In this document: in pieces, positions 1 through 4,463 of the stretch | Layout: each line of letters opens with the position of its first letter | Numbering within the stretch: the stretch's first letter is position 1 | DNA from: Chloroflexota bacterium | Lineage (GTDB): Bacteria > Chloroflexota > Dormibacteria > Aeolococcales > Aeolococcaceae | Length of the DNA stretch: 64,000 bases | Assembly: GCA_005880985.1 (NCBI GenBank) | Contig: VBIQ01000007.1 | Coordinates: 248,001-312,000 of the forward strand | Reading direction: 5' to 3' | Translations under genes and position numbers: made by a program | The notes under the pieces: model-generated | Seen by the model: the letters and a program-made list of their open reading frames with translations, nothing else | What the model was told of the DNA's origin: nothing | The model's database searches: none

Positions 1-524
1 ATCTTCTCCCGCTCGCGCCAGGCGTAGAGGAATGGGGTGGTCGCGCCGAGGTCGAGGGCGTGGGTGCCGAACCAGATCAGGTGGCTGCCGATCCGCGCCA
101 GCTCGGCCATGATCACCCGGATGTACTGTCCGCGCAGCGGCACCTCGATCCCCAGCAGCTTCTCCACCGCCAGCGAGAAGCCGAGGTTGTTGATCGGCGG
201 TGCCAGGTAGTCCATGCGGTCGGTGAAGGGGATGCACTGCTGATAGGTGTGCGACTCGAAGGAGCGCTCGAACCCGGTGTGGAGGAAACCGATGTCGGGG
301 CGCATCTCGCGGACGACCTCGCCGTCGAGATTCACCACCAGCCGCAGCACCCCGTGGGTAGAGGGGTGCATCGGCCCCATGTTGAGCTCCATGGTGTCGT
401 CATCGATCTGGGTGAGCTCGATCGCCTCCAGATGGCTCGGGACACCGAGAGTCTCGCGAGCGCGCGCGTACTCGTCGGGCTCACCGGTCGGCGGCGGGGT
501 GGCGGGTGGCAGCGCCGCCGTCAT
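1..524 (-). CDS. nuoD: NADH-quinone oxidoreductase subunit D, 5' part only
   Basis: The reading frame enters from the left edge and starts at 524, so only the N-terminal 174 residues are present. NuoD is the 49-kDa peripheral-arm subunit of complex I and helps form the quinone pocket. The translation shows the family block [18 protein letters not shown] followed by [19 protein letters not shown] and the YLAPPINN segment. The ATG overlaps the TGA of nuoC in an ATGA, which fixes the start and shows translational coupling. A Pro-rich stretch of about 15 residues precedes the conserved core. The rest of the operon presumably continues left of the window. Confidence 0.96.
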
Positions 525-1105
525 CGGGTGCTCCCCGGCATCCCCGGCGGACGTTCCTGCGCGGGCAGCGCCCACTCGAGGTTGTGGGTGAAGGCGACCG
601 GCTCGCCGAAGGACACGTAGTCCTTGCGCAGCGGATGCCCGACCCAGTCGTCGGGAAGCAGGAGGCGGCGCAGCTCGTGGTGTCCCTCGAAGATGATCCC
701 GAGGAGGTCGTAGGTCTCCCGCTCCAGCCAGTCCATGCCGGCGAACACGCCCTCCAGGGTGGGCACCGTGGGGTTCTCCTCGGGAGCCTGCACCACCAGG
801 CGGCAGATGTCGTTGTGCTCCAGCGAACGGAGCTGGTACACGACGTCGAAACGGGGCTCCTCCGGCTCGCGGTCGGGCCAGTCGACGGCGGTGACGAACA
901 CCGCCATCTCGTAGCGCCCCTCGGGGTCGTCACGGAGCAGGGTGCAGGCGTCGACCAGGCGCTCGGCACGGAGGTAGACGGTCTCCTCGCCGAATGCTTC
1001 GTCGCGGCGGAGCACGGCGTCGGGCATCTTGGCGGCGAGCAGCTGCGCTGCCCGAGCCCCGGCCACCGGCCGCGCCGCCGCGTTCGGGGTGGTGCCGGTG
1101 CTCAA
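521..1105 (-). CDS. nuoC: NADH-quinone oxidoreductase subunit C
   Basis: A 194-residue protein equivalent to the 30-kDa subunit of the complex I peripheral arm. The diagnostic C-terminal block [15 protein letters not shown], then [19 protein letters not shown], is intact. The frame opens with a TTG at 1105, six bases after the nuoB stop; an in-frame ATG at residue 28 is a possible alternative, so the exact start is uncertain. Its stop overlaps the nuoD start. It sits third in the order nuoA-B-C-D usual for bacterial complex I operons. NuoC and NuoD are separate here, not fused as in enterobacteria. Confidence 0.95.
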
Positions 1106-1111
1106 GGCTGC

Positions 1112-1687
1112 CTACCCGCGCAGTGACGCCGGCTCGGCGACGATCTTCTGCTGCAGCTTCAGCACCGCGTCCAGCACCGCCTCGGGACGCGGCGGGCAGC
1201 CGGGGATGTACACGTCGACCGGCACCACCTTGTCGACCCCCTGCACGATCGCGTAGTTGTTGAACATCCCACCACAGGAGGCGCAGGCGCCCATGCTGAT
1301 CACCCACTTGGGCTCGGGCATCTGGTCGTAGATCTGTCGCAACACCGGCGCCATCTTCTGGGAGACACGGCCGGCGACGATCATCAGGTCGGCCTGCCGC
1401 GGCGAGGCCCGGAACACCTCGGCGCCGAAGCGCGCCATGTCGAAGCGGCTGGCGCCGGTGCCCATCATCTCGATGGCGCAGCAGGCGAGCCCGAAGTTGG
1501 CCGGCCAGATGGAGCTGGCGCGGCCCCACGAGATCACCTTGCCGAGGGTGGTGGTGATCACCCCGCTGCGGATGGCGGTACGCTCGCGCGCTCCGGTCCG
1601 GGGAAGCGGGATCGCTCCTGCGTCGCCCTGGGCGCGCAGCAGCGTGGAGCCGTTCAGAACTCCCACCGCAACGCACCCTTGGCCCAC
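1112..1687 (-). CDS. nuoB: NADH-quinone oxidoreductase subunit B
   Basis: This subunit carries the N2 [4Fe-4S] cluster that hands electrons to quinone. Cluster ligands are visible as the adjacent cysteines in [12 protein letters not shown], the cysteine in [10 protein letters not shown] and the one in [10 protein letters not shown]. The longest frame starts with GTG at 1687, inside the 3' end of nuoA (34-nt overlap). A second in-frame GTG at 1666 would shorten the overlap. Neither has a convincing Shine-Dalgarno sequence, so the start is uncertain and translation is probably coupled to nuoA. The conserved core begins around residue 40 (GVITTTLGK). Confidence 0.95.
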
Positions 1688-2013
1688 ACATAGATGAGCG
1701 CGATGAACAGGGTGGCGATGAAGATGCCCATCTCCACCAGCCCGAAGATCTTGAGATCACGGACGATGGTAGCCCAGGGGAAGAGGAAGATCGATTCGAC
1801 GTCGAAGATGATGAAGAGCATCGCCGTCACATAGAAGCTGACCGAGAAGCGACGCCGCGCCGACTCCAGCGGCACGATGCCGGACTCGTAGGGGAGCTCT
1901 TTCTCCGGCGTCGGCTTGCGCGGTCCCACCGCGGCGCTGAGCGCCTGGACCCCGACCCCGAAGGCCACGCAGATCCCCAGGAAGACGAGAATCGGAGCGT
2001 AGTCCGAGAGCAT
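1654..2013 (-). CDS. nuoA: NADH-quinone oxidoreductase subunit A
   Basis: A 119-residue membrane-arm subunit with three predicted transmembrane helices (about residues 5-25, 60-80 and 88-110). The conserved loop [21 protein letters not shown] and the helix [20 protein letters not shown] are typical NuoA signatures; the acidic FDVE segment lies in the quinone/proton coupling region. It is the first gene of the nuo operon. A TACGAT box lies nine bases upstream of the ATG and there is no Shine-Dalgarno sequence, so the mRNA leader is probably only a few bases long. Confidence 0.96.
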
Positions 2014-2078: not shown

Positions 2079-2861
2079 ATGCGATCAGCTCTGTCGCCCT
2101 CGGTTCCCGCGCTGGTCACCGGTGCCTCGAGCGGGATCGGCGAGGCGATGGCGCGCGCGCTCGCCGGTCGCGGCCACCACGTGGTCGCGGTGGCGCGCCG
2201 GCGCGACCGGCTCCAGGCTCTCGCCGCGGAGATGGCGCCCTCCGGCGGCCTGATCGAGCCGATGGTCGCCGACCTCGGCACCGAGGCGGGGATGTCGGCG
2301 GTGGCCGAGCGGCTGCAGGACGGCCGGGCCTGGGTGCTGGTCAACAACGCCGGGTTCGGCAGCCGCGGTCGCTTCACCGAGCTCGACGCGACGCGCGAGG
2401 TCGACGAGGTCCTGCTCAACGTGGTGGCGCTGCACCGGCTGACCGCGGCCGCGCTGCCCGGCTGCGTCGCCCACGGCACCGGCGGCGTCCTCAACGTCGC
2501 CAGCACCGCCGCCTTCCAGCCGGTGCCCTACATGGCCACCTACGGCGCCACCAAGGCCTTCGTCCTCCACTTCACCGAGGCGCTGGCGGTCGAGCTCGCC
2601 GGCAGTGGGGTGCGGGTCACCGTGCTCTGTCCCGGTGCCACCCGCACCGAGTTCGGGGAGGTCGCCGGCAACGTCCGCCAGATCGAGATGGCGATGCCCA
2701 TGGGTCCCGTCAGGGTGGCCGCCAGCGCCCTGCGCGCCTTCGACCGCAACCAGACCATCTGCATCCCCGGCGCCGCCAACGCCGTCGGCGCCTACAGCGT
2801 GCGCCTCGTGCCTCGCTCGGTGGTCCGCCGGGTGGTCGCCCCCCTCTTCAAACCGCGCTGA
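2079..2861 (+). CDS. SDR-family NAD(P)-dependent oxidoreductase
   Basis: A classical short-chain dehydrogenase/reductase of 260 residues. The nucleotide-binding motif TGASSGIG lies at residues 14-21, the NNAG motif at 89-92, and the catalytic Ser142, Tyr155 and Lys159 (YGATK) are all present. ARRRDRL after the second beta strand carries basic residues, which favours NADP(H). The substrate cannot be told from sequence; close relatives are mostly annotated as ketone or alcohol reductases. It is transcribed divergently from nuoA, with 65 bases between the start codons. Confidence 0.9.
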   Translation: MRSALSPSVPALVTGASSGIGEAMARALAGRGHHVVAVARRRDRLQALAAEMAPSGGLIEPMVADLGTEAGMSAVAERLQDGRAWVLVNNAGFGSRGRFTELDATREVDEVLLNVVALHRLTAAALPGCVAHGTGGVLNVASTAAFQPVPYMATYGATKAFVLHFTEALAVELAGSGVRVTVLCPGATRTEFGEVAGNVRQIEMAMPMGPVRVAASALRAFDRNQTICIPGAANAVGAYSVRLVPRSVVRRVVAPLFKPR

Positions 2862-2897: not shown

Positions 2898-4451
2898 TCA
2901 GGCGTACGCGTACCCCTCCGGCAGTGGCCGCAGCGCGGGGGGACCGACGTAGAGCGCCGACGGGCGGATCAGCCGGTTGCTGGCGGCCTGCTCGGCGATG
3001 GCCGCCGTCCAGCCCACCGTCCGGCTGCAGGCGAAGGTCGGGGTGAACATGTCGCGGGGCACTCCCACGGTGTTCATCACCACCCCGGCGTAGAACTCGA
3101 CGTTGGTGTACAGCCGCCGCCCGGGCTTGAGCTCGTTGAGCACCCGCAACGCCGTGGCCTCGACGAACTGGGCGAACTCCGCCTGCTCGCCGCCGATCTC
3201 GGCGGCCACCTCACGCAGCAGCGTCGAGCGCGGGTCGTCGGTCTTGTAGACGCGGTGGCCGAAGCCCATCAGCCGGTGGCCGGCGCCGATCTCGTCGCGC
3301 AGGTACTCCTCGGCGTGGTCGGGGGTGCCGATGGCGTCGAGCATCGCCAGAGCGCGTGAGGGCGCGCCGCCGTGGAGCGGACCCGCGAGAGCGCCGATGG
3401 CGCCGGTCAGCGCCGAGCCGATGTCGGATCCGGTCGAGGTGATCACCCGGGCGGTGAAAGTCGAGGAGTTGAAGCCATGGTCCATGGTCAGGACCAGGTA
3501 CTTCTCGAGAGCTCGGGCCGCCGTCTCGGCCGGCCGAGTTCCGGTCAGCATCTGCAGATACGCGGCGGCGTAGCCGAGGTCGGGGTCGGGATCCACCGCG
3601 GGCAGACCCTGCTGGTAGCGATGCAGCCGCATCAGCAGCACCGGGGTCAGCGACGCCAGTCGCAGGGCCTCCGCGCGCACCTGCACGGCGGAGATGTCGA
3701 GGGTCGGCTCGACCTGGAGGGCCGCGCCAGTCAGCGACACCGCGGTGCGAAGCGCGCCCAGGGGGCTGTATCCGGGCAGGGTGGCGAGGCTGTGGAGCAG
3801 CGGATCGACGCCGCCGGGGAGGCTGCGAGCCGCCACCGTCCGCCCGCGGAAGTCCCGCAGCTGCGCGGAGTCGGGCAGCTCACCCTCGACCAGCAGGTGC
3901 CACACCTGTTCGAAGCTGCACCGCCGGGCGAGCTCGCAGGCGTCGTAGCCGCGGTAGTGAAAGAAGCCCTCCTCGCCGCGCACGTCGCCCACGGCCGTCT
4001 CCGCCACCGCGACCCCCTCCAGTCCGCGGGGCGCGAGTGCGGGCGCCGAGCCGGCCGGTTTGACCTCCTCGATGTGGGCGACCCGCACCACGTGCCGGAT
4101 CGAGAGGATCCCGGCGACGTGACCGTTCTCCAGCACCGGCAGGTGGCGGAACTGCCGGGTGCGAAAGATCTCCAACGCCTGCGCCACCGAGTCGTCGGCG
4201 GCGACGGTGACCGGGTGGGCGGTCATCACCTCCGACACCCTGGTGCTGGCAGGGTCGACGCCCTGCCCCAGCGACCGGAGGATGTCGCGCTCGCTGACGA
4301 TGCCGCGAACCCCGCCGTCGCTGTCGAGGACGGCGGCCGCCCCCACCTTGTGTTCGTCGAGCGCGTGGGCGGCCTCGGACAGGGTGAGATCGGCGCCCAC
4401 CGTGACCGGGGGCTTGTGCATCACGTCGCGGACCCGGAGCGCTTCGGTCAC
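2898..4451 (-). CDS. citrate synthase with N-terminal CBS-domain pair
   Basis: Condenses acetyl-CoA with oxaloacetate (or an acyl-CoA homologue) at the entry to the TCA cycle. Residues about 8-62 and 72-126 are two CBS domains (VRDVMHKPP, VSEVMTAHP) fused to a roughly 380-residue citrate synthase. Family motifs are DHGFNSSTF, GPLHGGAP (His360) and MGFGHRVYKTDDPR (His399). The third catalytic position, Asp in most citrate synthases, is Glu452 here (NVEFYAG). CBS pairs usually sense adenine nucleotides, so allosteric energy control is a reasonable inference. It starts with GTG at 4451, six bases after a TAAGCT box, consistent with a leaderless transcript. A methylcitrate synthase role cannot be excluded. 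Confidence 0.93.
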   Translation of the reverse strand: MTEALRVRDVMHKPPVTVGADLTLSEAAHALDEHKVGAAAVLDSDGGVRGIVSERDILRSLGQGVDPASTRVSEVMTAHPVTVAADDSVAQALEIFRTRQFRHLPVLENGHVAGILSIRHVVRVAHIEEVKPAGSAPALAPRGLEGVAVAETAVGDVRGEEGFFHYRGYDACELARRCSFEQVWHLLVEGELPDSAQLRDFRGRTVAARSLPGGVDPLLHSLATLPGYSPLGALRTAVSLTGAALQVEPTLDISAVQVRAEALRLASLTPVLLMRLHRYQQGLPAVDPDPDLGYAAAYLQMLTGTRPAETAARALEKYLVLTMDHGFNSSTFTARVITSTGSDIGSALTGAIGALAGPLHGGAPSRALAMLDAIGTPDHAEEYLRDEIGAGHRLMGFGHRVYKTDDPRSTLLREVAAEIGGEQAEFAQFVEATALRVLNELKPGRRLYTNVEFYAGVVMNTVGVPRDMFTPTFACSRTVGWTAAIAEQAASNRLIRPSALYVGPPALRPLPEGYAYA

Positions 4452-4457
4452 GACGAG

Positions 4458-4463
4458 AGCTTA
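4458..4463 (-). promoter_or_regulatory. -10 box of the citrate synthase gene
   Basis: TAAGCT on the minus strand ends six bases before the GTG start. No Shine-Dalgarno sequence lies between them, so the transcript is predicted to be leaderless. Confidence 0.5.

Follow-up and report, generated by a model that had tools for sequence, protein, structure and literature searches.

A CBS-fused, CitA-like citrate synthase with glutamate at the catalytic acid position in a Dormibacteria genome

The window analyzed here, a stretch of 64,000 nucleotides from a soil bacterium of Candidatus Dormiibacterota (genome of 3.3 Mb, 93% complete), encodes a 517-residue protein in which a pair of CBS domains precedes a citrate synthase domain. 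Comparison with its relatives indicates that this protein is probably a catalytically competent Si-type, CitA-like citrate synthase that uses a glutamate, Glu452, as its general base and carries a putatively regulatory CBS pair. The catalytic aspartate of citrate synthase is usually described as essential, and the branch of enzymes carrying glutamate in its place offers a natural experiment on general-base geometry, which rests on an apparent switch from Glu to Asp and on neighboring residues that co-vary with the acid. In addition, the CBS fusion allows energy-charge control of entry into the TCA cycle to be tested within a single chain, in both Acidimicrobiia and Dormibacteria.

Gene and domain organization

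The open reading frame was confirmed at exactly the coordinates first proposed, with Glu452 in its NVEFYAG motif, and lies on the minus strand (Table 1). Two features support its start: an in-frame stop located four codons before the GTG codon, and a conserved −10-like box. Close relatives start at the same position behind a TAGACT or TACACT box, which is found 6–10 nt before the start codon in 10 of the 12 relatives examined, and this spacing suggests that the gene may be transcribed without a leader in Dormibacteria. Full-length relatives with 68–77% identity are present in many independent genomes, placing the feature far above chance, and the best named relatives of the protein come from Candidatus Dormiibacterota genomes. 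We found no conserved operon partners: the neighboring genes (nuoABC, SDR, DUF3048, and patatin) do not recur beside the relatives. In the window, nuoA-nuoB-nuoC (521–2013, minus strand) lies just downstream, beyond a convergent SDR gene (2079–2861, plus strand).

The protein consists of two CBS domains (residues 1–125) joined through a flexible linker to a complete citrate synthase domain. The latter matches Citrate_synt (PF00285) over positions 1–357 of the 357-position profile, with an E-value of 1.3e-109 and a score of 367 bits against a cut-off of 27. The Pfam CBS profile matches in two stretches (E = 5.7e-31), the better of which covers CBS domain 1. Consistent with this layout, the structure model (mean pLDDT of 82) contains two ordered modules separated by a low-confidence stretch at residues 126–164. 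The best PDB match of the CBS part is Agrobacterium Atu1752 (3FHM, E = 4e-22), the closest solved CBS pair, but a stand-alone CBS protein. The N-terminal fusion described in the original prediction is thus borne out, both by Pfam and by full-length relatives in many genomes.

Table 1. Positions of the gene and of the protein features within the window
Feature	Residues	Coordinates	Strand	Basis
CBS-citrate synthase ORF	517 aa	2898..4451	minus	GTG start at 4451, stop ending at 2898
TAAGCT, −10-like box, 6 nt before GTG		4458..4463	minus	comparison with relatives
CBS domain 1	7–61	4269..4433	minus	Pfam CBS
SERD, [S/T]xxD ribose-binding type motif of CBS1	53–56	4284..4295	minus	alignment
CBS domain 2	about 71–124	4080..4241	minus	second Pfam stretch and model secondary structure
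SIRH of CBS2	117–120	4092..4103	minus	His at the position of Asp in Acidimicrobiia relatives (SMRD/SLRD/SIRD)
Linker, predicted flexible	126–142	4026..4076	minus	low-pLDDT segment 126–164
Citrate synthase domain	143–498	2958..4025	minus	complete Pfam profile
His360, catalytic His of GPLHGG	360	3372..3374	minus	invariant in alignment
Pro364 of HGGAP, always alongside Glu452	364	3360..3362	minus	alignment
His399, catalytic His of GFGHRVY	399	3255..3257	minus	invariant in alignment
Glu452, catalytic-acid position of NVEFYAG (450–456)	452	3096..3098	minus	motif and alignment

Glutamate in the CitA-like branch

Across 161 citrate synthase sequences, 97 have Glu and 64 have Asp at the position of Glu452, and none has any other residue. 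Six further residues (H325, H360, H399, R408, R477, and R496) are invariant in all 161, including both catalytic histidines, whose retention had been predicted. Every relative retrieved with the window protein carries Glu at this position, with or without CBS domains; the residue is kept in CBS-less orthologues (68–78% identity) and in enzymes from Glycomyces and Catenulispora (55–58%). Glu is also carried by two citrate synthases of known structure, B. subtilis CitA (2C6X) and M. tuberculosis CitA (8GI7/6WGY). The strict Asp of the NVD position is absent from the window protein. Since all 161 rows have an acid there and the solved citrate synthases include Glu enzymes, a strict Asp does not appear to define the Si-citrate synthase family PF00285. 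Judging from these sequences, Glu452 is the ordinary signature of the whole CitA-like branch, already known from solved structures. The original prediction had treated it as special to the window protein, a view that is not supported, as Glu proved common in the citrate synthases of this lineage. The possibility that Glu452 is a damaging or species-specific mutation was rejected in view of its presence in all retrieved relatives and of the 161-row alignment.

The closest solved relative is B. subtilis CitA (citrate synthase 1, 2C6X), which is the best PDB match of the window protein by sequence (E = 3e-93) and the best Foldseek match by structure (TM-score of 0.83 by target, 42% identity). It carries LYTNVEFYA and HGGAPS, and thereby shares NVEFY and HGGAPS with the window protein, but contains no CBS domains. 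M. tuberculosis CitA (6WGY, 8GI7, and others; PRK12350 group) likewise has Glu in TNVEFW together with HGGAP, and joins the same tree branch via a Glycomyces relative, itself on a long branch. This enzyme also lacks CBS domains and is only about 35% identical to the window protein in the fold alignment. Against NCBIfam PRK12350, the window protein scores 335.6 bits, barely above the cut-off of 332, and a close relative falls below it at 325.2. The CBS-citrate synthases of Acidimicrobiia share both the domain order and the Glu, with about 50–56% identity over the full length.

The residues surrounding position 452 vary with the identity of the acid. Pro364 accompanies Glu in 97 of 97 rows but Asp in only 5 of 64, the remaining 59 having another residue. 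Position 449 is Thr or Ala in all 97 Glu rows and Pro in 53 of the 64 Asp rows. At position 345, 94 of the 97 rows with Glu have Gly or Ala, and 53 of the 64 with Asp have Tyr. Thinning the set at 70% identity, which left 15 Glu and 22 Asp representatives, did not change the pattern, and the coupling could in part reflect shared ancestry. We infer a three-dimensional fit in which the longer Glu side chain is probably housed by these coupled changes: the loop following His360 reads HGGAP in place of HGGAN/S/T/A, residue 345 is mostly small where Asp enzymes mostly have a tyrosine, and Thr or Ala replaces Pro at 449.

In a tree of 48 citrate synthase sequences, one branch (support 99/99) unites the Glu rows with four Asp rows that come from a different Dormibacteria family, one with tandem citrate synthase genes. 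These four rows are nested within the Glu branch next to a Glu sister (99/98); forcing all Glu rows into one clade gave a tree that was mildly rejected (p-AU = 0.034). Two D/E changes are needed by the tree. The simplest reading suggests one change to Glu followed by one back to Asp, the alternative being two independent gains of Glu; the Asp copies read as reverted have also lost Pro364. The window protein belongs to the CitA-like Glu branch by its NVE motif, by HGGAP, and by its position in the tree. In the tandem pairs of the other family, an Asp copy (HGGAT, NVDFW) stands next to a Glu copy (HGGAP, NVEFY), possibly forming a hetero-oligomer or dividing labor.

Catalytic function

To place the Glu enzyme in its genomic context, we surveyed 47 genomes, comprising the window genome and its relatives. 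As the only citrate synthase, 11 Dormibacteria genomes carry the Glu enzyme and 5 the Asp enzyme, where “only” denotes the sole Si-type citrate synthase detected; most of the Glu-only genomes are 71–92% complete, and a second gene may be missed in some. Such incompleteness weakens any individual case, but four genomes of one genus (g12) agree. Aconitase-family matches occur in all 47 genomes, above the cut-off in 39. Two Acidimicrobiia genomes (3.2 and 3.9 Mb) also have a single citrate synthase, which is the CBS-Glu form. Interchangeable citrate synthases would be expected to give such a reciprocal pattern of Glu-only and Asp-only genomes. Because it is the sole Si-type citrate synthase detected in these 11 Dormibacteria and two Acidimicrobiia genomes, the Glu enzyme most likely works as a citrate synthase. 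B. subtilis citA, for its part, was reportedly first cloned by complementation of an E. coli citrate synthase mutant.

By homology, we propose that Glu452 would take the methyl proton of acetyl-CoA in place of Asp, and that the enzyme would condense oxaloacetate with acetyl-CoA at the entry to the TCA cycle, alongside the ordinary Asp citrate synthase of the same genome. This second, canonical enzyme is encoded at C12:255373–256455 and carries NVDFYSG. Together with two MmgE/PrpD-family genes, which lie on a contig other than that of the window, its presence could leave the window copy with a side role.

In a rival reading, the protein is chiefly a 2-methylcitrate synthase acting on propionyl-CoA, with Glu452 shaping the choice of acyl-CoA, an effect that the original prediction had considered. 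The second citrate synthase and the PrpD-family genes would fit this reading, as would NCBIfam matches that include the mixed citrate/2-methylcitrate family TIGR01800, below its cut-off. We nevertheless consider it quite unlikely, as the known methylcitrate synthases in our sample, Salmonella PrpC (NLDWF) and M. tuberculosis PrpC (NLDFP), carry Asp and lie outside the Glu branch. The window protein falls outside their clade and under the equivalog cut-offs, the PrpD genes are not on its contig, and no citrate synthase other than the Glu enzyme was detected in several aconitase-bearing genomes; nothing was found in support of an altered acyl-CoA choice. It is very improbable that Glu instead disables catalysis, leaving a crippled paralogue whose CBS-citrate synthase body acts as a metabolite sensor or regulator. 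A CBS pair is indeed a sensor module, and a canonical citrate synthase is available in the same genome, but none of the other catalytic and oxaloacetate-binding residues varies, the two solved CitA enzymes carry Glu, and the 11 Dormibacteria and two Acidimicrobiia genomes with the Glu enzyme as their sole detected copy argue for an active protein.

The CBS fusion and its possible role

Full-length CBS fusions occur in several genera of Dormibacteria. When 120 genomes were sampled from the class of an Acidimicrobiia genome, 22 carried the fusion and 7 more a CBS-less relative. The main Dormibacteria clade, which comprises 30 rows (SH-aLRT of 99), is placed among CBS-bearing Acidimicrobiia in a tree of the branch that has a very distant outgroup, and a transfer between Acidimicrobiia and Dormibacteria with the fusion already made appears likely. 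Within Dormibacteria, the CBS domains were lost at least twice (in genera g16/g19 and g12/g13), and no separate CBS gene indicative of gene fission was found beside the CBS-less orthologues within the loci examined. A literature search for CBS-fused citrate synthases returned nothing relevant among the papers covered, and a paper on citrate synthase assemblies makes no mention of CBS, Acidimicrobiia, or the catalytic aspartate (PMC11615384). The CBS-citrate synthase fusion is thus a real and conserved variant that is apparently unstudied.

CBS motifs of the [S/T]xxD type bind the ribose of adenine nucleotides. When the two domains of the window protein were compared with the pattern [S/T]xx[D/N], SERD of CBS1 fitted and SIRH of CBS2 did not, so that nucleotide-binding residues are lacking in no more than one site. 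Across two phyla, 59 of the 64 relatives that bear CBS domains read TERD or SERD in CBS1. CBS2 reads SIRH or STRH in the main Dormibacteria clade, whereas the Acidimicrobiia enzymes mostly have S[MIL]RD, and both the altered CBS2 and the loss or erosion of CBS domains in some close relatives weigh against the same-chain control by adenine nucleotides that had been predicted. Such control can still fairly be inferred from the conservation of the fusion and from the intact nucleotide-type motif of one domain, and it is plausible for the window enzyme. The CBS pair, on its flexible linker, would most likely bind an adenine nucleotide (AMP/ATP or NADH), at least via the canonical CBS1 site, and would tune activity or assembly.

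The regulatory half of this proposal, and only that half, has a rival in which the enzyme is active but its CBS pair serves as a structural or oligomerization appendix with no physiological ligand. We regard this as somewhat unlikely. The repeated loss of the domains, with no stand-alone CBS gene found next to the copies that lack them, the flexible linker, the exchange of Asp for His in CBS2, and the erosion of the motifs in one genus (g15) would all fit an appendix, but not the retention of the CBS1 motif across two phyla or of [S/T]xRD in CBS2 of most Acidimicrobiia. Returning to a regulatory CBS pair, we tentatively consider a broader scheme possible, in which the covalently attached nucleotide sensor switches activity, taking the place that NADH allostery has in hexameric type II enzymes, and in which the Glu base, enabled by P364, a small residue at 345, and T/A449, would have reverted to Asp on one or more occasions.

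We also observed citrate synthase domains fused to an HTH_17/MerR-like DNA-binding domain, with the catalytic residues kept (L080:6700–7953, L091:2819–4003, and L028:285–1463, all on the minus strand). Genus g15 of Dormibacteria and several Acidimicrobiaceae carry such a gene divergently beside that of the CBS-citrate synthase, and the HTH-citrate synthase is a possible metabolite-sensing regulator. None was found in the window genome, both of whose citrate synthase genes are of another kind. Finally, a contig titled Bifidobacterium breve (CAMDCC010000005.1) encodes an Acidimicrobiia-like CBS-citrate synthase that groups with the Acidimicrobiia rows, and probably belongs to a mislabelled assembly.
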